A stretch of DNA of 13,748 nt from Saccharofermentans sp. (GTDB lineage: Bacteria > Bacillota_A > Clostridia > Saccharofermentanales > Saccharofermentanaceae), in the NCBI GenBank assembly GCA_024695565.1, contig JAILHX010000034.1:1-13748 (forward strand), given 5' to 3'. The position numbers and the translations under genes are program-made. Below the pieces are notes generated by a model, which worked only from the letters and a program-made list of their open reading frames with translations, was not told the origin of the DNA and ran no database searches. Shown one piece after another: positions 3,872-13,680 of this stretch (position 1 is the first letter of the stretch; each line of letters begins with the position of its first letter).

Positions 3872-6496
3872 TTAGTACCAGTCCTTGTGTCTCTTGATGT
3901 AAATGGTCTTCATTATCTGCGCAAAGATCATGTAGATGATCATAAGGATAGCGAGCCAGAGCATGTAGCTGATGGGCATCGTCGGCAGGCTGAAGACCGC
4001 GGAGATTCCCGTGAAGCCGATGAGCAGCGTAACAACGATTATGGCGAGCGTTGAGAGCGTCAGCTGGATCGATGCCCTGTCGCCCACGAACGGGAGCTTC
4101 GGCGTTCTGATCGTGTGGATGACCATCGTCTGCGAGATGACGCCGAACATGAACCAGCCGCACTGGAAATATCCGGCCATGTCAGGATTGTTATATCCGT
4201 AGATGAACCACAGAACGAGGAAGCACAGGACGTCCAACACCGTGCTCAATAGTCCGAACGATACCATGAAGCCTCTGATGCCGCCTAAGTCCCACTTCTT
4301 CGGCTTCTCGATATACTGCGGTTCGACGTGGTCGAAAGGCATGCCGAGCTGGGCAAAATCGTTAAGAAGATTCTGGACGAGAATATGGATCGGAAGCATC
4401 GGCAGGAACGGCAGGAAGATGCTTGCGATAAGAACTGAGAACATGTTGCCGAAGTTGCCGCTTACGGACATCTTCAGATACTTGGACATGTTGGCGAATG
4501 TGCTTCTGCCTTCGACAACGCCCTCATCCAATACCATGAGGTCTTTCTCAAGGAGGATGATGTCGGCAACTTCTTTTGCGATGTCGACGGCGTTATCAAC
4601 TGAGATTCCGATGTCTGCCTGCTTCAGCGGCAAGCTGTCGTTGATGCCGTCGCCCATGTAACCGACGGTGTGACCCTTGGACTGGAACATCTTGACCACG
4701 CGCTGCTTCTGGTAAGGAGAGAGCTTCGAGAAGATGTCGCACTTCTCGCACGCTTCTGCGAGTTCCTCATCACTCATGGCATCGACCTTGACACCCGTAA
4801 GTGTCATCTCGGTATTGATGCCGAGCCTGCCGCAGATGTTGATGGCAACGCCTTCGCTGTCACCCGTAAGTACTACAGTACGGACGCCGTTCTTCTTGAG
4901 CGCTGCGATAGCTGTGCCTGCAGATTCCTTCGGCGGATCCAAGAATCCGACGAAGCCGATCAATACCATGTCGCTCTCATCTTCGACACCGAAAACATCA
5001 ACGCCGTGAACGTTATTTTTCTGGGCAACCGCGATGACACGGATGCCTTCCAGGTTATTCTCTTCTGCGATCTTCTTCGCATTGGCCTTGAGTTCATCAG
5101 TGATGTCTTTTACCTCGCCGTTGATCTCGATGAACGAGCAGATGGAGAGGATCTCTTCTACCGCACCCTTGGTTATGAGCTGGCGCTTGCCGTTCTTATC
5201 CTTGAGCACGACGCTCATGCGGCGGCGCGAGAAGTCGAAAGGGATCTCATCTTCTCTTGTGTATGTCTCCTTAAGATATGAGAGATCTTCCTTCTCCGCA
5301 CGGTTGATGATGGCAACGTCCATGAGGTTCTTAAGACCTGTCTGGAAGTAGCTGTTGAGGAACGCATGTCTTAATACACGCTTGTCCTCGCGGCCGATAA
5401 CATCCATGTATTTCTCTAAGATGATCTCATCCTGTGTGAGAGTACCCGTCTTATCCGTGCAGAAGATATCCATCTCGCCGAATGTCTGGATCGCACCGAG
5501 ACGCTTAACGATAGTCTTCTTGCGGGACATGTTGATAGCGCCCCTCGCAAGCGAAGAGTTCATGATGACAGGCAGCATCTCCGGCATGATTCCTACTGCG
5601 ATCGTGATGCCGAACATCAGGGACTGGAGCCATCCGCCCTGACCCTTGGTGATGAAGTTCGCGATGAAGATGACGGGCACAGTAACAAGCATGAACCTGA
5701 TAAGGAGCTTGCTGACTGAATCAAGATTCTTCTCGAAAGCACTCTTCTCTTCATAAGAGTTAAGGCTCTTTGCCATGCTTCCGAAGTATGTGTCTCCGCC
5801 GGTCGTAAGGATGATCGCCTTGGCGCTTCCCGATACGATGTTGGATCCCATGAATCCGATGTTAGCAAGATCTGTTACGCCGACATTCGTATCTGCAGTA
5901 GTGAACTTCTCAACAGGATTGCTCTCGCCCGTGAGCTGTGACTGGTCGATAAACAGGTCCTTCGTCTCGATGAATCTGACGTCGCCGGGGATCATGTCGC
6001 CTGATGCGAGCTTAACAATGTCGCCCGGAACGATCTCCTCGATCTCTACCTCCATCTCAACGCCGTTTCTGATGACGTCGAGCTTGTTGGTGATCATGCC
6101 CTGAAGTTTCTTTGCAGCATTATTGGACTTCTCTTCCTGAATGAAAGATATCGTCGCAGAGATGATGATTACCGTAACGAGCATAGCGAACGTTACGACC
6201 GACGGCTCGTCAGACATGATTACATCTGTGATGAACGTGATGACCGCAACGATCAGAAGCACGATATTGAATGGGTTGATGATCGCATCCTTGATCCTCA
6301 CGGCAAGATTCTTCTCGTTGCCGAAATCAATGATGTTCTTTCCGTACTCTTCGAGTCTGTCAGACACCTGAACCGGATCCAATCCTTCTTCGTCTGTTTT
6401 GTATTTCTCGAAAAGCGCCTGCTGCTCCATGCCGCTTAATTCTAGCAGCTTCTTCTCTACTTCGTCGCGGCGCTCATTGTTGACTTTCTTCTTCAT
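3872..6496 (-). CDS. mgtA: MgtA-type P-type ATPase (magnesium-importing)
   Basis: This 874-aa ATPase couples ATP hydrolysis to cation movement across the cytoplasmic membrane. The visible P-type motifs in order are the actuator-loop TGES (189-192), the fourth-helix motif GIMPEMLP (302-309), the phosphorylation motif DKTGTLT with D348, the nucleotide-binding KGA (443-445), TGDSE (544-548) and the hinge GDGIND (615-620). About ten membrane helices are expected: two pairs before the phosphorylation domain and six after it. The MPEMLP motif and the 'FDHVEPQYIEKP' segment in the C-terminal membrane half are characteristic of the P3B (MgtA/MgtB) magnesium-importer group rather than of calcium, copper or potassium pumps. 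The length is typical. The start is fixed by AAAGGA 8 nt upstream of the ATG. The leader is about 100 nt or less, too short for a complete M-box magnesium riboswitch, so regulation is probably at the promoter. Confidence 0.92.
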   Translation of the reverse strand: MKKKVNNERRDEVEKKLLELSGMEQQALFEKYKTDEEGLDPVQVSDRLEEYGKNIIDFGNEKNLAVRIKDAIINPFNIVLLIVAVITFITDVIMSDEPSVVTFAMLVTVIIISATISFIQEEKSNNAAKKLQGMITNKLDVIRNGVEMEVEIEEIVPGDIVKLASGDMIPGDVRFIETKDLFIDQSQLTGESNPVEKFTTADTNVGVTDLANIGFMGSNIVSGSAKAIILTTGGDTYFGSMAKSLNSYEEKSAFEKNLDSVSKLLIRFMLVTVPVIFIANFITKGQGGWLQSLMFGITIAVGIMPEMLPVIMNSSLARGAINMSRKKTIVKRLGAIQTFGEMDIFCTDKTGTLTQDEIILEKYMDVIGREDKRVLRHAFLNSYFQTGLKNLMDVAIINRAEKEDLSYLKETYTREDEIPFDFSRRRMSVVLKDKNGKRQLITKGAVEEILSICSFIEINGEVKDITDELKANAKKIAEENNLEGIRVIAVAQKNNVHGVDVFGVEDESDMVLIGFVGFLDPPKESAGTAIAALKKNGVRTVVLTGDSEGVAINICGRLGINTEMTLTGVKVDAMSDEELAEACEKCDIFSKLSPYQKQRVVKMFQSKGHTVGYMGDGINDSLPLKQADIGISVDNAVDIAKEVADIILLEKDLMVLDEGVVEGRSTFANMSKYLKMSVSGNFGNMFSVLIASIFLPFLPMLPIHILVQNLLNDFAQLGMPFDHVEPQYIEKPKKWDLGGIRGFMVSFGLLSTVLDVLCFLVLWFIYGYNNPDMAGYFQCGWFMFGVISQTMVIHTIRTPKLPFVGDRASIQLTLSTLAIIVVTLLIGFTGISAVFSLPTMPISYMLWLAILMIIYMIFAQIMKTIYIKRHKDWY

Positions 6497-7310: not shown

Positions 7311-7358
7311 ATCGGATGTGTGTCTTTAAGGCACGACGATAATCAGGGGGGATTTCAC

Positions 7359-8846
7359 ATGAAAAAAGTAATCATTGTCGGAGCCGGTATCTCCGGAATG
7401 ACTGCGGGAATCATTCTGCAGAATTCCGGTTTTGAGACCGAGATCTACGAGAAGAATGCCATCCCGGGCGGAGAGCTTACCGGCTGGAAGCGCGAGGGCA
7501 TCTACATCGATAACTGCATCAACTATCTCATGTGCAGTAAGAAGGGCAGCGATATGAACGGGCTGTGGCGCGAGATCGGAATGCTCGATGACAGCGTAAA
7601 GATGTATTCGAAGGACAAGTTCTTCACATACAGAGGCGAAGGCGGAGAGATTACTTTCTGGAGAGATAAGGAGAGGACCAAGCGTGAGATGCTCGAACTC
7701 TCACCTGAAGACAAGGATGTTATCGAGAAGTTTTTCGAGAACGTGGTAAGAGCTGAAAGCATGATCATGCCTATCGACAAGCCGATGGACAAGATGGGCC
7801 CGAGAGACTTCATGAAGCTCGGCGACTTCGCAAAGAACGTTCCTGCAGCACAGAAGGCTTACAAGGGCGTCAGCGTTAAGGACCTCTCAGAGAGCTTCAA
7901 GAACCCCGTTCTGCAGGGCGCTGTTATGAACACTCACCCCGAGATGACACAGGCATATTCTTTCATCATGTCCTACGCAATGGTCACATCAGGCAGCGGC
8001 GACATTCCGGAAGGCGGCTCGCTTGCAGCAGCACTCAGGATCGCTGACAGATATAAGTCCGCGGGCGGCAAGCTCCACCTCGGCGCACCCGTAAAGAGCG
8101 TTAAGATCAACGGCAAGATCGCTGACGGAATCGTTCTTGAAGACGGCACAGAAGTCAATGCTGACTACGTCATCTGCGCAACAGATGCCAACCACACATT
8201 TACAAAGCTTCTTCCTGCAAGCTACATGCCGAAGAAGCTCAGGAAGTGCTTCGATGACAAGGATCACTTCTCGGTATTCTCCAAGTTCCACGCCGCATTC
8301 GTTATTGACGGCAAGACAAGCATCCCGATCGACACAACATACTGGGGCGTCGAAGGCTTTAAGGTCTGGGGCAGAGAACACAGCCACGTCGGCGTCATCA
8401 GCTACGACTACGATCCCACGATCGTGCCTGCAGACAAGACAGTCGTTCAGATGAAGATATTCCAGTACGGCAAGGAGATAGACAACTGGTTCGAGCTCGC
8501 TAAAGACCGCGAGAAGTATGAGGCCAAGAAGCTCGAGATCGCCCAGCAGATGCAGTCACTTATCGAGGAACAGTTCCCTGAGACAAAGGCCAGGATCCGT
8601 CTCCTCGACACATGGTCACCTGTCACATACGCCAATCACAACAACTCATACAGAGGCGCATACATGGCCTTCGTCGCTGACAAGGATACCAAGACGGTCA
8701 CTACACCCGGCGTCATCAAGGGCCTCAAGAACGTATTCCTCTGCGGCCAGTGGCTCATGGGTTCAGGCGGACTTCCGCCGGCAACCGCCCAGGGCAAATA
8801 TGCAGCATGGAGAATCTGCAAAAAAGAACGCGTTGAGTGCAAGTAA
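7359..8846 (+). CDS. CrtI-like NAD(P)/FAD-dependent oxidoreductase
   Basis: This 495-aa flavoprotein belongs to the phytoene desaturase / amine oxidase-like superfamily. The N-terminus has the dinucleotide-binding fold VIIVGAGISG with GAGISG at 8-13, an acidic residue at the end of the second strand (E31) for the FAD ribose, and the following PGG (36-38). A second FAD/substrate region includes SGSGDIPEGGS (211-221). The C-terminus has the second FAD-contact region, VFLCGQ (459-464) followed by GSGGLPPATAQG (468-479). No carotenoid synthesis genes are nearby, so the substrate is unknown; the desaturase resemblance indicates fold rather than pathway. I chose the ATG at 7359 because AGGGGGG lies 7 nt upstream and the conserved fold begins directly there; an upstream GTG at 7320 would add 13 unlikely residues. 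The gene ends with a strong terminator. Confidence 0.88.
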   Translation: MKKVIIVGAGISGMTAGIILQNSGFETEIYEKNAIPGGELTGWKREGIYIDNCINYLMCSKKGSDMNGLWREIGMLDDSVKMYSKDKFFTYRGEGGEITFWRDKERTKREMLELSPEDKDVIEKFFENVVRAESMIMPIDKPMDKMGPRDFMKLGDFAKNVPAAQKAYKGVSVKDLSESFKNPVLQGAVMNTHPEMTQAYSFIMSYAMVTSGSGDIPEGGSLAAALRIADRYKSAGGKLHLGAPVKSVKINGKIADGIVLEDGTEVNADYVICATDANHTFTKLLPASYMPKKLRKCFDDKDHFSVFSKFHAAFVIDGKTSIPIDTTYWGVEGFKVWGREHSHVGVISYDYDPTIVPADKTVVQMKIFQYGKEIDNWFELAKDREKYEAKKLEIAQQMQSLIEEQFPETKARIRLLDTWSPVTYANHNNSYRGAYMAFVADKDTKTVTTPGVIKGLKNVFLCGQWLMGSGGLPPATAQGKYAAWRICKKERVECK

Positions 8847-8861
8847 ATTGAATTATTAAAG

Positions 8862-8905
8862 AGACCGTCTCATAAGAGGTAATTGCCGCTTGTGAGACGG
8901 TTTTC
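8862..8905 (+). terminator. Intrinsic terminator of the oxidoreductase gene
   Basis: ACCGTCTCA (8864-8872) pairs perfectly with TGAGACGGT (8893-8901), with further pairing inside the loop, and is followed by TTTTC. It lies 17 bp downstream of the stop codon. Confidence 0.88.
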
Positions 8906-9193
8906 TTATGCCCGATTGATAAGAGGTTTTGCTTTAGTTGCCGGGAAACCGGGAAGCTCTTCAGCGGATGTTTATAGTTATCACAAACGGATTGATTTTT
9001 AAGATTAATGATAAAAATCCAAGTGGAATTTATCACTAACGACTTGTTTTCGCGGGCTAATGATAAAAACAACGTATGGGTTTATCATTTATTCCATTAT
9101 TCTTCGGGGAAAATGATAAATACTTCGCCAAAATTATCATTTATGTCCGCTTTTTTTGGAGTTTTTGATAACTCACCTCGAAAAGCACTCTCC
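8906..9193. other. Non-coding convergent intergenic region
   Basis: This stretch lies between the terminators of two converging transcription units. Open frames across it are short and lack ribosome sites. Besides the phased TGATAA array it contains a short direct repeat CCGGGAA (8941-8947 and 8949-8955). No tRNA or recognisable structured RNA was seen. Confidence 0.7.
8978..9171. repeat. Array of eight alternating TGATAA/TTATCA motifs, 52-bp period
   Basis: TTATCA begins at 8978, 9030, 9082 and 9134 (exactly 52 bp apart). TGATAA begins at 9009, 9061, 9114 and 9166 (52, 53 and 52 bp apart). Successive motif starts are separated by 31, 21, 31, 21, 32, 20 and 32 bp, or nearly three and two helical turns (31.5 and 21 bp). 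Most copies extend to AATGATAAA or its complement. The intervening DNA is largely unique, with faint similarity between neighbouring units (TTATCAC-AACG in the first two, TTATCATTTAT in the last two). A ninth TGATAA at 8917-8922 is out of phase. No gene is credible here. The array probably binds a protein cooperatively along one helix face; its role is unknown. Confidence 0.85.
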
Positions 9194-9226
9194 CAAGAAC
9201 AAGGGCTGCCTCAAGCGAGACAGCCC
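9194..9226 (-). terminator. Intrinsic terminator of the dynamin operon
   Basis: On the minus strand GGGCTGTCTC (9226-9217) pairs with GAGGCAGCCC (9212-9203) around a four-base loop, with one G-T pair, giving a ten-bp stem. TTGTTCTT follows. It begins 7 bp after the stop codon of the 186-aa gene. Confidence 0.8.
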
Positions 9227-9232
9227 GTTGCT

Positions 9233-9793
9233 TTATTCTTCCATGAACTCTTCCAGACAATTATCTGCGAAGTGCCAGACGCCGTAGAGACACAGCTTCG
9301 TGTTCTTCTCTGCGAGAGTTTTTGTATCGTCGTAGATCTTCTGCGCCGCAAGGCTCGCACCGCCCGTCGCGACTGCGAGACCGACCGTGCCGACTGCCTT
9401 TACGACCTTTGCTGCAGGGTCTTCCGCGGCCTGCGCAAGGATCGCGCCTAATGCATCGTTATACTCATCCTTGAATGCGATATAACGGTCGTTGTCCTTG
9501 ATGTAGACGGTGTCAGCAGTGATGAGCGCGTAGCGCGGATTAATGCCGTAGCGGATGCCCCAACGCTCGTAGCGGATGTCCATGAAGCATGAGAGCGATT
9601 CGGTCTCCTTGATGGCGCCGACTATAAGGACCTTCGAATTAATGGGACCTGTCTTGCGCTTAACGTCCCAGGTCTTCTCCTCCCAGCACTCCAGGTCTTC
9701 GCTTGCAATGTTGCCGGAAGACACGAGTATCTTGCTGACATCTTCTACTGTCTGCTTATCCTTACCGATAACTATCAGTTTGTTCCCTGCCAT
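9233..9793 (-). CDS. Unknown protein, third gene of the dynamin operon
   Basis: This 186-aa protein is of a family I do not recognise. The N-terminal half alternates strands and helices: 'KLIVIGKDKQTVEDV' (5-19) and 'SKVLIVGAIKETESL' (53-67) look like beta-alpha units, and 'YALITADTVYIKD' is strand-like. A helix rich in Gly, Ala and Val follows at about 126-150 (AAKVVKAVGTVGLAVATGGA), which could insert into or lie on a membrane. A short C-terminal region with two cysteines (C168, C179) ends in acidic residues. There is no signal peptide, so it is probably cytoplasmic or membrane-associated. AAGGAG 6 nt upstream of the ATG is an optimal ribosome site. It lies 58 bp downstream of the second dynamin gene and shares its operon, so a role as partner or regulator of the dynamins is the best inference. 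Confidence 0.82.
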   Translation of the reverse strand: MAGNKLIVIGKDKQTVEDVSKILVSSGNIASEDLECWEEKTWDVKRKTGPINSKVLIVGAIKETESLSCFMDIRYERWGIRYGINPRYALITADTVYIKDNDRYIAFKDEYNDALGAILAQAAEDPAAKVVKAVGTVGLAVATGGASLAAQKIYDDTKTLAEKNTKLCLYGVWHFADNCLEEFMEE

Positions 9794-9817: not shown

Positions 9818-9866
9818 TTATTCAGCCGACTCTTCTATTCAGCCGGAACTTTTATTCAGCCGACTC
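9818..9866 (-). repeat. 17-bp tandem triplication over the dynamin stop codon
   Basis: Three copies of TTATTCAGCCGACTC-like sequence begin at 9818, 9835 and 9852. The middle copy differs (CTATTCAGCCGGAAC). The copy at 9852 contains the stop codon of the 565-aa dynamin gene. Because 17 is not a multiple of 3, the TAA, TAG and TAA of the three copies fall in the three different frames. Confidence 0.85.
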
Positions 9867-11549
9867 GTGCATCTGCGCGATCAAAGACTGGATGTCCTTC
9901 TGAATACGCTCGAGCTTAACGCACTTATCAGACCTGTCAGATCTCGTGCTTCGAAGATCTGAGATATTGTCCTCAACAGACTTGATCGACTGCTCCATCG
10001 GAATTACGATGCACTGTCTGATGTAATCGGAAGCGTAGTCTTCCAGGCCCTTTGCGGCCGTATTGAATTCGCTTCTGATGTTCTGGCGGTTGTTCTTCAT
10101 GGCATCGAGCTTTAACTGCTCTTCGTAGTCTTCCTTGAACTGGAGAGCCATCTCAAGTCCGATTCCCACGATGCCGATGAATGAAGATACGCGGCCTGCC
10201 TTGCCTGCACCTTTTGCGATCGCGGTGCCCGCATTGACCGTATGAAGCGAGTTCTTGAGGAACTTCTGCGTGCTTCCGGTAAGGCCGATCGAATTGGCAG
10301 AAGGATCCGAGAGAGAAAGTACTTCATTGAATCCTGACTTCGCGAGAGTGCCTACCAGGAGGTCGCTCTGCTTCTCCAAGTCAGTTGCCGTAACGAATAC
10401 TTTCTTGACCGTGTCAGGGAGATTGTCGTACTTATCTACGAGCCTGATCTTGAGGTTCTGGTTGAACTCAGTTGCTTCCATGTCAACGAAGCTCTGACCA
10501 AGCTCAAGGAAGCACGAATGCACGTGATCGTCAGCAGCGGTGCGGGTCTTTTCGATGAGTTCTTCAGCGCTCTTGCCGTACTGGCCGACGCTCTCTTCGA
10601 GTTCTTCCTTGGTGATGTTCGAATCGACCAGTGCAGCGGCATCAAGGCCCATTCCCCTGATCTGTGCAGAGGCATCAGAGAAGATGTCCTGAACTTCTCT
10701 CTGCATCCTGGATCTCGCATCGATCAGGAGGTGGCGCTGCTGCTTTAAGTTCTCTTCGAGCATGTCGATATCTGCATCCTCCGAACCCGGTGTCAGATCT
10801 GATATCGCCTTGTCGAGTTCGTTATCGAGCACATAGAGGTCCGTCGTGAGCTTGGATGTGAGAGCCTTCTCCTCAACGAACTGGTTGAGCGTCTCAATGA
10901 ATTCCGCATAGCCGGATCTCGCGAGGAGCTCGTCAGCTAATTCGGGATCTTCCTCACGCTCTTCGAGACTATCAAGATAAGACTGGGCATCGAGGAATGA
11001 CAGATGTAGCTGCTCGGGCGTGTAGGGCGAGAGAACGGGGCGCAGAGCCTCTCTTACGACTTCGTGCTGTTCGGGCGTGTTGCCTGCTGCCGCACGGTCC
11101 ATCTTGTTGACAACGAGGATCATCTCGCCTGCCTTGTCCTTATCGATTGCAAGGCGTCTGAAGTGATCGGCCATATAAGAATCGAATAACTCATTTGTCA
11201 CTACGAAAACCAGGATATCCGCAGACGCGATAGCCTTGTAGGATATCTCGTCGTGGTCAGGACGAAGAGACGTATGCACGCCGGGAGTGTCAACGATCTC
11301 AAGGCCGTTCCATTCGTAGGTGTGGGTCTCCTGGGTGGTGATTTTCGCGCCCGTGGCAACGGTATCGTCGCCGGTGATCATCTTGATGATCGACGATTTT
11401 CCTGCAGAATATTGCCCTGCGAAAACGATCCTGACGCGGTCGGACTTCTCCGACTCAAGGTTTCCCTCAACACCGGCCTCGGCCAGCGCACGGACGGCCT
11501 TATCCTTCAGCGCTTCTTTTGCACGTGACAATTCGGCAATCTCTAACAT
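9852..11549 (-). CDS. Dynamin-like GTPase B (565 aa)
   Basis: This is a dynamin-superfamily GTPase expected to bind membranes. GTPase motifs are visible: G1 GQYSAGKSS (45-53), G2 threonines T71/T72 in KITTQET, G3 DTPG (87-90) and G4 NKMD (148-151), all close to consensus, so it is probably active. A mostly helical region (about 230-430, including 'DMLEENLKQQRHLLIDARSRM') forms the likely stalk. A small-residue-rich hydrophobic segment (about 440-470, 'GIVGIGLEMAL') is the likely membrane paddle, followed by a final helical arm. I chose the ATG at 11549: GGAGGA (11562-11557) lies 8 nt upstream inside the end of the preceding gene. An in-frame TTG at 11564 would add five residues but has no better site. 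Only 4 bp separate it from the preceding stop, indicating translational coupling. The partner is probably the 708-aa dynamin. Confidence 0.9.
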   Translation of the reverse strand: MLEIAELSRAKEALKDKAVRALAEAGVEGNLESEKSDRVRIVFAGQYSAGKSSIIKMITGDDTVATGAKITTQETHTYEWNGLEIVDTPGVHTSLRPDHDEISYKAIASADILVFVVTNELFDSYMADHFRRLAIDKDKAGEMILVVNKMDRAAAGNTPEQHEVVREALRPVLSPYTPEQLHLSFLDAQSYLDSLEEREEDPELADELLARSGYAEFIETLNQFVEEKALTSKLTTDLYVLDNELDKAISDLTPGSEDADIDMLEENLKQQRHLLIDARSRMQREVQDIFSDASAQIRGMGLDAAALVDSNITKEELEESVGQYGKSAEELIEKTRTAADDHVHSCFLELGQSFVDMEATEFNQNLKIRLVDKYDNLPDTVKKVFVTATDLEKQSDLLVGTLAKSGFNEVLSLSDPSANSIGLTGSTQKFLKNSLHTVNAGTAIAKGAGKAGRVSSFIGIVGIGLEMALQFKEDYEEQLKLDAMKNNRQNIRSEFNTAAKGLEDYASDYIRQCIVIPMEQSIKSVEDNISDLRSTRSDRSDKCVKLERIQKDIQSLIAQMHESAE

Positions 11550-11553
11550 AGGA

Positions 11554-13680
11554 CTATCCTCCAATCTTATATGGTACGATCTGCTCTAACAGACGTAATT
11601 TGTTATAAAGCCTGATATCTTTGTCGCCTGACTTGATTGTAACAATGTTACTTCCCTCGTCACACATGATATTCTCAGGTTCAACGAGGCCCCCCAGAAC
11701 TTCTGACACAAACACCGGAGTCTCGGGCGTGGCGGTGACAAAACCGACGTCTTCCGATATGAGATCTGCGATCTTCGAACGGAATTCCTCTCCGACCGCG
11801 CCTTCTGATTCTTCGGAATACAATGTGCACACACCGGGGATTCTCGCCGCGGTGGTGATCCTCGAGATATAAGAAGAAGCCTGCTCCTGACCAAAGACCG
11901 CAGTCGCGATATTCTCCGTGAAGGTCATGTTAAGAGAACGGGTCTCGGAACGAAGATCGTCAGCTAACGCCGACTGGGTCTCTGCCAGTGAATTAATTAC
12001 CGTCTCTATCTTGGTGAGCTCATTGATAACGAGGTCGACCTTGCCGGTGACGAGCCTTTTTAAGTTCTTCTCGAGCTGGGTCCAGATGTTGTCGCATGTG
12101 GCATTGACGGAATCAGTCAGTTCTTTCTCGAGGCGCGCGCGGGCCTTCGCGAGCCTGTCGCCATGCGATTCGAACAACAGGAGTCCCGCCTCGACCGTAA
12201 GGCTCACGCCCGCAACGATCCAGCCGACCGGACCGCAATTGATCCCCAATGCCGGAAGTATCAGCGCAGTCAGCGCTCCGCCCGTGCCCATAATGAGATT
12301 CGTCCACTTGACGATCTTCTTGACATCGATCAGGTCGGGCGTTAAGAAATTCCTCTCGAGCGAATCGACAGACACGTAATTGAGCTCGCTCGTCATCTCG
12401 CGGATCGCCTCTTCGACGAAGCCGTCAACTTCTGCTTCCATATCGTCTAAAAGCTCTCTGCATCTGCCTTCGATATCCTTGCTCTTAACTATCTTGCTCC
12501 ACTCGATATCCGCCATCTTATCGTCGTAATGGTCTTCCGCAAATGATGCGATATCCGTGCGGAGCTCAGTCTTAAGGCGCATCATGAAGGACTCGATCCT
12601 CTTCTTGCCTTCCTTTACAAATATAGCCTTGCGCTTCTCAAGCGCATGCTTCTTGTCGGCAATGATCCTGCCCTGCGACTCGTTCATCCTGCTCTGCATG
12701 TCGAGCTCGGAAAGCGCCTCTATCATGGGGTTCGCGATGATGTCCGCGAACGTCTTGACCCTTATGTATTTGCCCCTGACCCGGACCTCTTCACAAATCA
12801 GCGACTTGAGATCATCAATGCGGCTTATCTTGCGCCAGAACTCAGCCTTCGCCTTTGTCTCTTCATCATCAGACTTCTCACACTTTACTGCTTCGTATGC
12901 TGCCTTGAGGTGCGCGAAAACAAACGGCACACCTGTCCAGTCCTGACCATATGGCTCCGCAAACTTACAAAACTGAGTCCTGATATCTTCTATTCTCTCT
13001 TCGTCAAAAGCCCTGTTCATGTCGCGCTCGACAAGCTTCATGCTCTTGCCGGCATCAACAGAAACCTTGACGTTCATTATTACTATCACGGGCTTGCCCA
13101 GATCCTTTACCTGCCTGAAGCAGTCCGCCTCAACCGCCTGCGGGGCATCATCCGTCAGCAGGAACACGATGAGATCCGCAGTCTTCGCCGCGTCAAACGC
13201 CAGTCTCGTATCCTCTTCGCCCTCGAAAGCGCCGATTCCCGGAACATCCGTGACTGCCAGTCCGTTCCACTCATAGCGCCTGATATCCCTCGTGGTCCTC
13301 TGCGCGCCCAATCCGATCGCAGATCCGTCGCCTTCCGTCAGCACTTCCATCAGCGTGGACTTGCCTGCCATCGTCCTTCCGAAAAGCGTCACCGAGAACT
13401 TATCCAGATCCCCTTCGAGCACCTGCAGATCTTCGGTAAAAGACATGCGCAGATCATCGACCGCACCCTGTATCCCGGACAACTGTTCTTCCAGCGTCTC
13501 GCCGATCCCGACGACCTCGCAGGGCGAAGTCTTATATTCTATTGCCGTCTCAGAGATCTTGTCTTCAGCCGACTGCAGAACACCGTCAAGCACAGCCTTC
13601 TCATCCGAAGCGAGCTTATACCCGCTCCTCGCCGCCTCATGGCATTCGGCTAAAGCTTTTGTAAGATCGGTATTGGTCAT
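11554..13680 (-). CDS. Dynamin-like GTPase A (708 aa)
   Basis: This is the first gene of the operon and a larger dynamin-like GTPase. An N-terminal helical region (1-90) precedes the GTPase domain. That domain has G1 GRTMAGKST (101-109), G2 threonines in QRTTRDIRRYEW (T129/T130) and G3 DVPG (145-148). The G4 position reads IMNVKV (201-206) rather than NKxD, so guanine recognition may be unusual. Charged helices at about 310-440 form the stalk. A strongly hydrophobic hairpin (about 461-480 and 484-503, 'GALTALILPALGI' then 'GWIVAGVSLTVEAGLLLF') resembles the membrane-inserting paddle of bacterial dynamin-like proteins. A further helical arm (505-600) and a C-terminal extension of about 100 residues follow. 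AGGGGA about 5 nt upstream of the ATG fixes the start. Adjacent dissimilar dynamins usually work as hetero-oligomers, as known for several bacterial pairs. Roles in membrane repair or anti-phage defence are known for relatives but cannot be decided here. Confidence 0.9.
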   Translation of the reverse strand: MTNTDLTKALAECHEAARSGYKLASDEKAVLDGVLQSAEDKISETAIEYKTSPCEVVGIGETLEEQLSGIQGAVDDLRMSFTEDLQVLEGDLDKFSVTLFGRTMAGKSTLMEVLTEGDGSAIGLGAQRTTRDIRRYEWNGLAVTDVPGIGAFEGEEDTRLAFDAAKTADLIVFLLTDDAPQAVEADCFRQVKDLGKPVIVIMNVKVSVDAGKSMKLVERDMNRAFDEERIEDIRTQFCKFAEPYGQDWTGVPFVFAHLKAAYEAVKCEKSDDEETKAKAEFWRKISRIDDLKSLICEEVRVRGKYIRVKTFADIIANPMIEALSELDMQSRMNESQGRIIADKKHALEKRKAIFVKEGKKRIESFMMRLKTELRTDIASFAEDHYDDKMADIEWSKIVKSKDIEGRCRELLDDMEAEVDGFVEEAIREMTSELNYVSVDSLERNFLTPDLIDVKKIVKWTNLIMGTGGALTALILPALGINCGPVGWIVAGVSLTVEAGLLLFESHGDRLAKARARLEKELTDSVNATCDNIWTQLEKNLKRLVTGKVDLVINELTKIETVINSLAETQSALADDLRSETRSLNMTFTENIATAVFGQEQASSYISRITTAARIPGVCTLYSEESEGAVGEEFRSKIADLISEDVGFVTATPETPVFVSEVLGGLVEPENIMCDEGSNIVTIKSGDKDIRLYNKLRLLEQIVPYKIGG

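Follow-up and report, generated by a model that had tools for sequence, protein, structure and literature searches.

Between two converging genes of Saccharofermentans sp., eight exact TGATAA/TTATCA hexamers of alternating orientation occupy positions 8978-9171 of the 13,748-bp stretch of DNA analysed in this study (contig JAILHX010000034.1, hereafter the window). Arrays of the same geometry, with this or other motifs, were found in some genomes of one order, relatives of the lactic acid bacteria, and the window array is assigned to the same class by its geometry, its AT rhythm, and its position, not by sequence homology. As judged from the sequence, such an array may well be a row of sites for a sequence-specific protein that would bend or wrap the DNA on one face of the helix.

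The array in the window

The two converging genes leave an intergenic region, 8847-9232, between them. A preliminary description of this DNA had reported eight alternating TGATAA sites, downstream of both neighbouring genes and hence not in a promoter position, and both statements hold. All eight sites are present and exact, with starts at 8978(-), 9009(+), 9030(-), 9061(+), 9082(-), 9114(+), 9134(-), and 9166(+) and start-to-start spacings of 31, 21, 31, 21, 32, 20, and 32 bp. The features of the region are as follows.

7320..8846, plus strand: left convergent gene, FAD-dependent oxidoreductase, resembling the phytoene desaturase family below the model cut-off
8857..8908, plus strand: imperfect 26-nt inverted repeat (77% complementary), then T-rich DNA; possible terminator of the left gene, without a call in the terminator scan
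8976..8988: outer extension on the left, 13 nt, 92% complementary to 9161-9173
8978..9171, no strand: whole array, four 37/38-bp inverted units TTATCA-N25/26-TGATAA with 14/15-bp linkers, period 52
8978..9014: unit 1, from site 8978- to site 9009+, spacing 31 bp
9015..9029: linker 1, 15 bp, A/T-rich beside the sites
9030..9066: unit 2, from site 9030- to site 9061+, spacing 31 bp
9067..9081: linker 2, 15 bp
9082..9119: unit 3, from site 9082- to site 9114+, spacing 32 bp
9120..9133: linker 3, 14 bp
9134..9171: unit 4, from site 9134- to site 9166+, spacing 32 bp
9161..9173: outer extension on the right, 13 nt, 92% complementary to 8976-8988
9203..9226, minus strand: terminator-like hairpin of the right operon, from the terminator scan (0.7 expected by chance)
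9233..9793, minus strand: right convergent gene, last of its set, 186-aa protein, family unassigned

One more TGATAA, the ninth of the intergenic region, is found at 8917, 61 bp away from the array. According to the motif-blind scan described below, the 13.7 kb window holds one such array only, and the window has no match in Rfam at the gathering thresholds. The array had been placed between two terminators; the right one (9226-9203, minus strand) is called, while on the left there is only the imperfect 26-nt inverted repeat. Five promoter-like matches occur in the array against 0.8 expected, all of them the site pairs themselves. Bidirectional promoters were considered and rejected, since these matches are merely site pairs and the other motif families, by eye, are unlike promoters.

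Departure from chance and history of the spacers

The whole window contains 18 TGATAA on both strands against 6.84 expected, a number reached in 0 of 200 shuffles, and the 386-bp intergenic region contains nine against 0.33 expected, with a maximum of six in 20,000 dinucleotide shuffles. A more general test accepted any hexamer in alternating orientation at distances of 10-45, provided that each distance was repeated within 1 bp. The longest such chain has eight members in the real window; in the 1,000 dinucleotide shuffles made from the intergenic region, as in 100 shuffles of the whole window, it was 0 or 3. The preliminary description had asked whether shuffled AT-rich intergenic DNA would give similar arrays, and shuffles of the intergenic region that holds the array gave none. 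With the hexamers masked, the A+T content of the spacers is periodic at 10.4-10.6 bp, as strongly as in 0 of 2,000 hexamer-fixed shuffles. This independent rhythm bears out the helical phasing that had been proposed from the site spacings.

The spacers are partly related to one another. Those of units 1 and 2 have 15 of 25 letters in common, as many as in 0 of 5,000 shuffles; those of units 3 and 4 have 13 of 26 (p 0.03), and that of unit 2 shares 11 of 25 letters with each of the latter two (p 0.04 and 0.05). Identity among the linkers is no more than expected by chance, and the pooled direct identity is 82/194 (42%). The simplest account, and a likely one on these figures, is that of an old tandem duplication after which the spacers drifted and the hexamers were retained. 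The preliminary view that spacing is conserved rather than sequence therefore stands insofar as all hexamers are intact while other letters drift, but the spacers retain some mutual similarity, and 'rather than recent duplication' is true only in part because an old tandem duplication is likely.

TGATAA arrays in Aerococcaceae bacterium DSM 111022

A four-site TGATAA pattern, run against one genome per species for 84,980 species, returned two loci. The locus from Neobacillus lies inside a 1262-aa open frame, which is 5'-nucleotidase-like by eye, and was taken as chance. The other (L121), from Aerococcaceae bacterium DSM 111022 (G001), has 24 consecutive alternating sites; these form four sets of six, each set 38-39 bp from the next. 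Because its linker was fixed at 15 bp, the pattern cannot detect arrays with 14-bp linkers throughout, to which most of those in G001 belong, and the scan is no census.

In 713 kb of the approximately 2.2 Mb of G001, 19 chains of at least three TGATAA sites were found. Ten of these have six sites, nine at spacings of 31, 20, 31, 20, 31 and one with a 32. On two contigs, TTATCA is followed by TGATAA at 31 bp 47 times and TGATAA by TTATCA at 20 bp 32 times, and at any other distance from 7 to 60 there are at most three pairs. A three-site TGATAA pattern matched four of 76 genomes of the family, with 77 places in G001, ten in a second genome (G026, which one control pattern also matched once), and one in each of two others; in the phylum it matched one of 398 genomes, which is G001. 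As an array motif, TGATAA is rare.

At C10:292767-295068 of G001 (in L178), a TGATAA array is split by transposase-like genes, IS66-like by eye. Some phased arrays can be read as open frames with 17-residue repeats (L121:7093-7668; G001 C19:47216-47740 and 263375-263623), so that annotation may call them repeat proteins; no relatives of one such frame were present among 7988 candidates scored.

A class defined by geometry

A motif-blind scan accepted any six-letter word followed by its complement, the word itself, and the complement again. On two contigs of G001 (676 kb) it gave 330 matches, 250 of them at a period of 51 bp, and the same DNA contains 34 clusters at 50-53 bp. About nine motifs other than TGATAA form arrays in G001, namely AGTGAA, CTAACA, TGAAAA, TAAGAA, AGTTAT, GTTTAA, GTATAA, GTCCAA, and GTAACA, some of which are related via a common ACAACT core. 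In 434,595 bp of G026, which was chosen partly because it was already known to match, a slightly more tolerant scan gave 45 clusters, and the periods of the matches were 51 (n=341), 52 (n=72), 41 (n=49), 50 (n=42), and 82 (n=17). The background is low by comparison: 120 viral loci (1.03 Mb, preselected by a TTATCA pattern) gave 11 clusters, two of them at 51, and 40 genomes of the phylum (597 kb) gave two, at 39 and 67, none of the array period. Among 20 genomes of the family (297 kb, with some pieces of 1-2 kb), arrays were seen in G026 alone, three in 20 kb.

The GTATAA family of G001 has a 31-bp unit and linkers of exactly 10 or 20 bp in alternation, as seen in one array of 15 sites and one of 11. 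When GTATAA sites less than 60 bp apart are counted on the two contigs, one kind of inverted pair occurs at 31 bp 18 times, and the other at 10 bp 10 times and at 20 bp 6 times, the other distances shown occurring once each. The linkers of this family are quantised in whole helix turns, and its fixed 31-bp unit with 10- or 20-bp linkers is further evidence for helical phasing. Two G026 arrays have distances of 31 and 10 bp, with a single 12.

Beyond these two genomes, an AGTGAA pattern run against 395 genomes of the order matched G001 82 times, G026 27 times, and a third genome (G051) four times. A reversed control that spells the same geometry (TCACTT/AAGTGA) matched 14 others of the 395, and all 14 matched again when it was re-run on them and G051. 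When 32 loci from these 15 genomes were scanned motif-blind, four or more alternating sites with a period of 51-52 were seen in 18 loci from eight genomes. Some of these 18 lie on a shared array, and the single three-site matches in the remaining genomes may be chance. Arrays of the AAGTGA or AGTGAA type have longer and different arms, e.g. TCACTTGTACCG.

Overall, the class is characterised by a row of at least four exact sites of alternating orientation, with distances of about 31 and 20 (or 10) bp by turns, and by a rhythm of about 10 bp in the AT/GC content of the spacers, and the window array has both. Its period is 52-53 bp, the commonest in G001 being 51, and its AT profile correlates modestly with that of G001 (r 0.35, p 0.022). 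The preliminary description knew of no described element with this geometry. A literature search that covered few subscription papers likewise gave no description of the array class; the geometry itself, however, recurs beyond the window.

Dispersed hairpin-like repeats, around GTCAATTTC...GAAATTGAC and AGAGTCGC...GCGACTCT, often adjoin arrays in G001 and G026 by eye (e.g. L292:8300-8400).

Helical rhythm of the spacers

In the 51-bp profile of 33 G001 units, A or T is present in 33 of 33 units at columns 38-41 and 49-51 and in 32 at column 48, with both letters common in these columns, while columns 44 and 45, halfway from one site to the next, hold G or C in 32 of 33. Such a pattern is what would be expected of DNA bent round a surface. 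In the masked spacers of 71 arrays, including that of the window, the AT rhythm at 10.2 bp has 5.1 times the shuffled power; the next strongest harmonic of 51 bp in the plotted range, near 7.2 bp, has 2.2 times.

Genomic position and turnover

The stretches of G001 and G026 contain 85 clusters, among which some at 41, 42, and 50 bp (AGAGTC, CGACTC, CCATAA, GATGCA) may be other palindromic repeats. One cluster is inside an open reading frame, seven are at the end of a stretch, and 77 lie between called genes, the calls being simple open reading frames of at least 100 aa. The 77 intergenic clusters comprise 26 in convergent, seven in divergent, and 44 in co-directional regions, and all 408 intergenic regions comprise 58, 83, and 267, respectively, which is a convergent excess (Fisher p 1e-4). 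The test was redone per region because several clusters may share one region. Convergent regions then account for 19 of the 67 that hold arrays and for 39 of the 341 that hold none (p 8.5e-4). With regions shorter than 300 bp set aside, the excess is weaker, at 18 of 66 and 22 of 153 (p 0.035), and divergent regions are no longer significantly scarce (p 0.30). For periods 51 and 52 alone, 16 of 50 array regions are convergent (58/409 regions overall, p 7e-4). It thus appears from the per-region counts that a convergent position is favoured but not exclusive.

Both flanks allowed 13 G026 arrays to be located on G001 contigs. Where the flanks are at least 94% identical, array and motif are unchanged in five of five cases; where they are 80-91% identical (n=8), G001 has an array at the spot in five and none by scan in three. 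At C76:41457, sites of GTAACAACT type in G026 stand opposite TGAAAA, TAAGAA, and TGATAA arrays in G001, and at C76:59157 three TGAAAA units of G026 stand opposite an AGTTAT array and TGATAA sites split by a transposase gene in G001. These two are the clean cases of another motif among the five spots with an array in G001; of the other three, two involve 41-50 bp clusters (maybe other repeats), and one has the common ACAACT core. By eye, the alignment at one of the three array-less G001 spots shows an imperfect array of another motif, and at a further spot sites of GGTTGTTT type in G026 lie opposite two TGATAA arrays of G001. Replacement of the motif at a kept intergenic spot is thus suggested by these comparisons but not established.

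A putative protein row and its alternatives

Chance in AT-rich DNA, or a tandem duplication without function, would be in keeping with the 60% of letters common to the spacers of units 1 and 2. This is hardly credible, however, as an account of an array whose chain of eight compares with at most three in any shuffle of the intergenic region, whose eight hexamers are intact while the spacers have drifted to 42% pooled identity, and whose geometry is found in other genomes. The inverted sites might instead be RNA or cruciform hairpins, such as terminators or stabilisers of mRNA 3' ends. The inverted repeats do sit downstream of genes, and RNA of the region that holds the window array folds better than its dinucleotide shuffles (z -3.4), but this fold is mostly explained by the hexamers; when they are fixed and the spacers shuffled, a small excess is left (z -0.9 and -2.0 for the two strands). 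The longer arms of G001 add stability, with a mean z of -2.6 over ten arrays relative to hexamer-fixed shuffles, and a few units alter both arms jointly (TTAAAC to TTCAAC in G001 C10:350791). Yet among 1,945 differences between units in 53 arrays, just 49 are compensated within the unit, while 1,652 are one-sided and 244 affect both sides without pairing. The arms match at 8.45/11 within a unit, which is no better than the 8.54/11 across units; across the linker the match is slightly better (9.01/11), and this value and the joint arm changes mildly favour pairing. In the TGATAA family, AAAT arms are opposite TTTC in 13 of 54 units and never opposite AAAT, and exact 10/20-bp linkers together with an AT rhythm are properties of double-stranded DNA. 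The hairpin explanation, already weakened, is improbable.

Another explanation is that the arrays are selfish elements of REP/BIME or MITE type, sites for a transposase that disperses them, with any effect on gene ends secondary. The scatter of the 19 TGATAA chains, ten of them six-site, over the 713 kb of G001, the many G001 array ends that read gga...tcc, the patchy distribution, and the failure of array-bearing intergenic stretches to align between G001 and G026 (77-86% identical where aligned) would all fit such elements. In a search that covered the Y1 family, however, the REP-type transposase was present in four of ten genomes and absent from both G001 and G026. Two aligned cases revealed no clean empty site or target duplication, albeit in poor alignments; the copies have little in common beyond hexamers and phasing, and whole-turn linkers are no obvious requirement of transposition. 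Viral contigs lacked two four-site TGATAA patterns and a three-site AAGTGA-type pattern, and BLAST of three class arrays against plasmids and of one against phages gave nothing. Dispersal of this kind is rather unlikely as the main explanation, though it deserves consideration. The window array itself had two short weak matches to plasmids by BLAST. A loose three-site TGATAA pattern matched at least 120 stretches of viral contigs, which were treated as noise; the sole one with two overlapping matches among the 80 viral stretches listed (L040) is repetitive and coding-looking. The array might finally be an ordinary operator cluster of a regulator, or a centromere, an iteron, or a dynamin docking site. 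In favour of these are the repeated sites on one face of the helix, a common trait of such elements, and the excess of promoter-like matches noted above, all of them site pairs. Against these, the array is downstream of both neighbours, and G001 and G026 carry dozens of arrays with several motifs, with which the single segregation or loading site of the preliminary description also fits poorly. In addition, G001 has no homologue of the 708-aa GTPase encoded in the window (this protein, and not its 570-aa partner, being the query), and the Omega repressor (PF07764) was found in one of 13 genomes searched, neither G001 nor G026. Explanations of this sort appear quite improbable. In G051, three Omega-repressor matches occur within 12 kb of one chromosome (C1:1238328-1249837; L356, L357).

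The reading as a row of protein-bound sites rests on the alternation of sites on one face, on whole-turn linkers, and on AT tracts in which either letter will do, from which we infer a protein that would bind inverted pairs and bend the DNA. Either a dimer or a dimer of dimers may occupy each 31-bp unit, adjacent units would touch, and the DNA would be wound round the row of protein. The several motifs within one genome point to a putative protein family with varied specificity, one member of which might set the motif of a given array. The same variety also counts against the protein row, as several motifs per genome would demand several specificities, and so does the patchy distribution, with arrays of the class period in one of 20 genomes of the family (G026, already known to match) and in none of 40 of the phylum, in small samples. 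Further points against it are the slightly different period of the window array, its modest profile correlation with G001, the weaker convergent excess among long regions, and the better match of arms across a linker, which leaves some scope for pairing. As a guess from their position, the nucleoprotein at gene 3' ends could act as a roadblock or a topological insulator between converging units, a role that we regard as doubtful.

One possible scheme, which is speculative and as a whole unlikely at present, suggests a nucleosome-like system in some Bacillota. In this scheme, members of a putative protein family, each with its own hexamer, would wind up stretches of 100-600 bp in intergenic DNA close to gene 3' ends and so form phased rows. 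The assembly would fix the geometry of three-turn units with one- or two-turn linkers, and the motif could be swapped with the protein while the spot keeps its row. If the protein reading is right, the arrays constitute a kind of structured non-coding DNA that as yet has no name, in one Bacillota order, with a Clostridia member in the window. The rule of the class would be geometry, not sequence, so that sequence-similarity searches would overlook such arrays. A family of DNA-binding proteins with differing specificities would then await discovery, and the arrays would offer a direct route to how bacteria organise DNA at converging gene ends.

Relation to known systems

Omega/parS of Gram-positive plasmids consists of arrays of short sites in varying orientation, the contiguous heptads WATCACW, to which a small protein is bound. 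We take this heptad to resemble TATCACA and TATCACT at window sites 8978 and 9030; unlike the contiguous heptads, the window sites are 20-32 bp apart. Sites of DNA gyrase have phased GC/AT flanks, and the rhythm of about 10 bp in AT/GC content makes the arrays similar to gyrase-wrapped DNA. Exact alternating hexamers, as present in the arrays, are not known as a feature of the preferred gyrase sites (PMC6379681).

REP, BIME, and REPIN elements are described (PMC2817692) as dispersed intergenic palindromic units with alternating orientation and regular spacing. The window and class arrays are similarly alternating, evenly spaced, and intergenic. Unlike REP/BIME, they keep a site of 6-10 bp and phased AT tracts rather than a covarying stem-loop, their linkers come in whole helix turns, their motif varies from array to array, and the two array-rich genomes lack the Y1 transposase. 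As to the stem-loop by which REP/BIME are recognised, complementary arms are not maintained in the arrays, though the hexamers themselves are complementary. REP tags are given as GTAG or CGTC (PMC3733652), and neither these tags nor their complements are present in 8978-9171. Many intergenic sets of a short exact motif are also formed by the TAACTGA repeats of Beggiatoaceae (PMC4679880). These are reported to be direct repeats, with one indirect, of a single motif, unlike the alternating arrays in this study.

Neighbouring genes

Behind the gene for the 186-aa protein, two dynamin-like GTPases are encoded in tandem on the minus strand (9852-11564 and 11554-13680), for which the best PADLOC models are LeoA in the case of the 570-aa protein (E 7e-114) and LeoBC in that of the 708-aa protein (E 8e-101). 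Docking to this dynamin module, also suggested in the preliminary description, finds no support in array-rich G001, in which the 708-aa GTPase has no match and the arrays adjoin unrelated genes. In the genome searches, the 708-aa GTPase had a 33% match in one genome (G106). In the class of that genome, the 186-aa protein had matches of 23-28% in three of 300 genomes, and the same three were found among 61 genomes of one order. The 186-aa protein, a conserved partner of the GTPases, has 71 relatives, of which the named ones are from Butyrivibrio, Ruminococcaceae, and Clostridiales; to judge by these names, the host is probably a rumen-type Clostridium. Elsewhere in the window, a magnesium-translocating P-type ATPase (TIGR01524, above cut-off) is encoded at 3872-6496 on the minus strand, and a pair consisting of a LytTR response regulator and a GHKL histidine kinase at 719-2831 on the plus strand.
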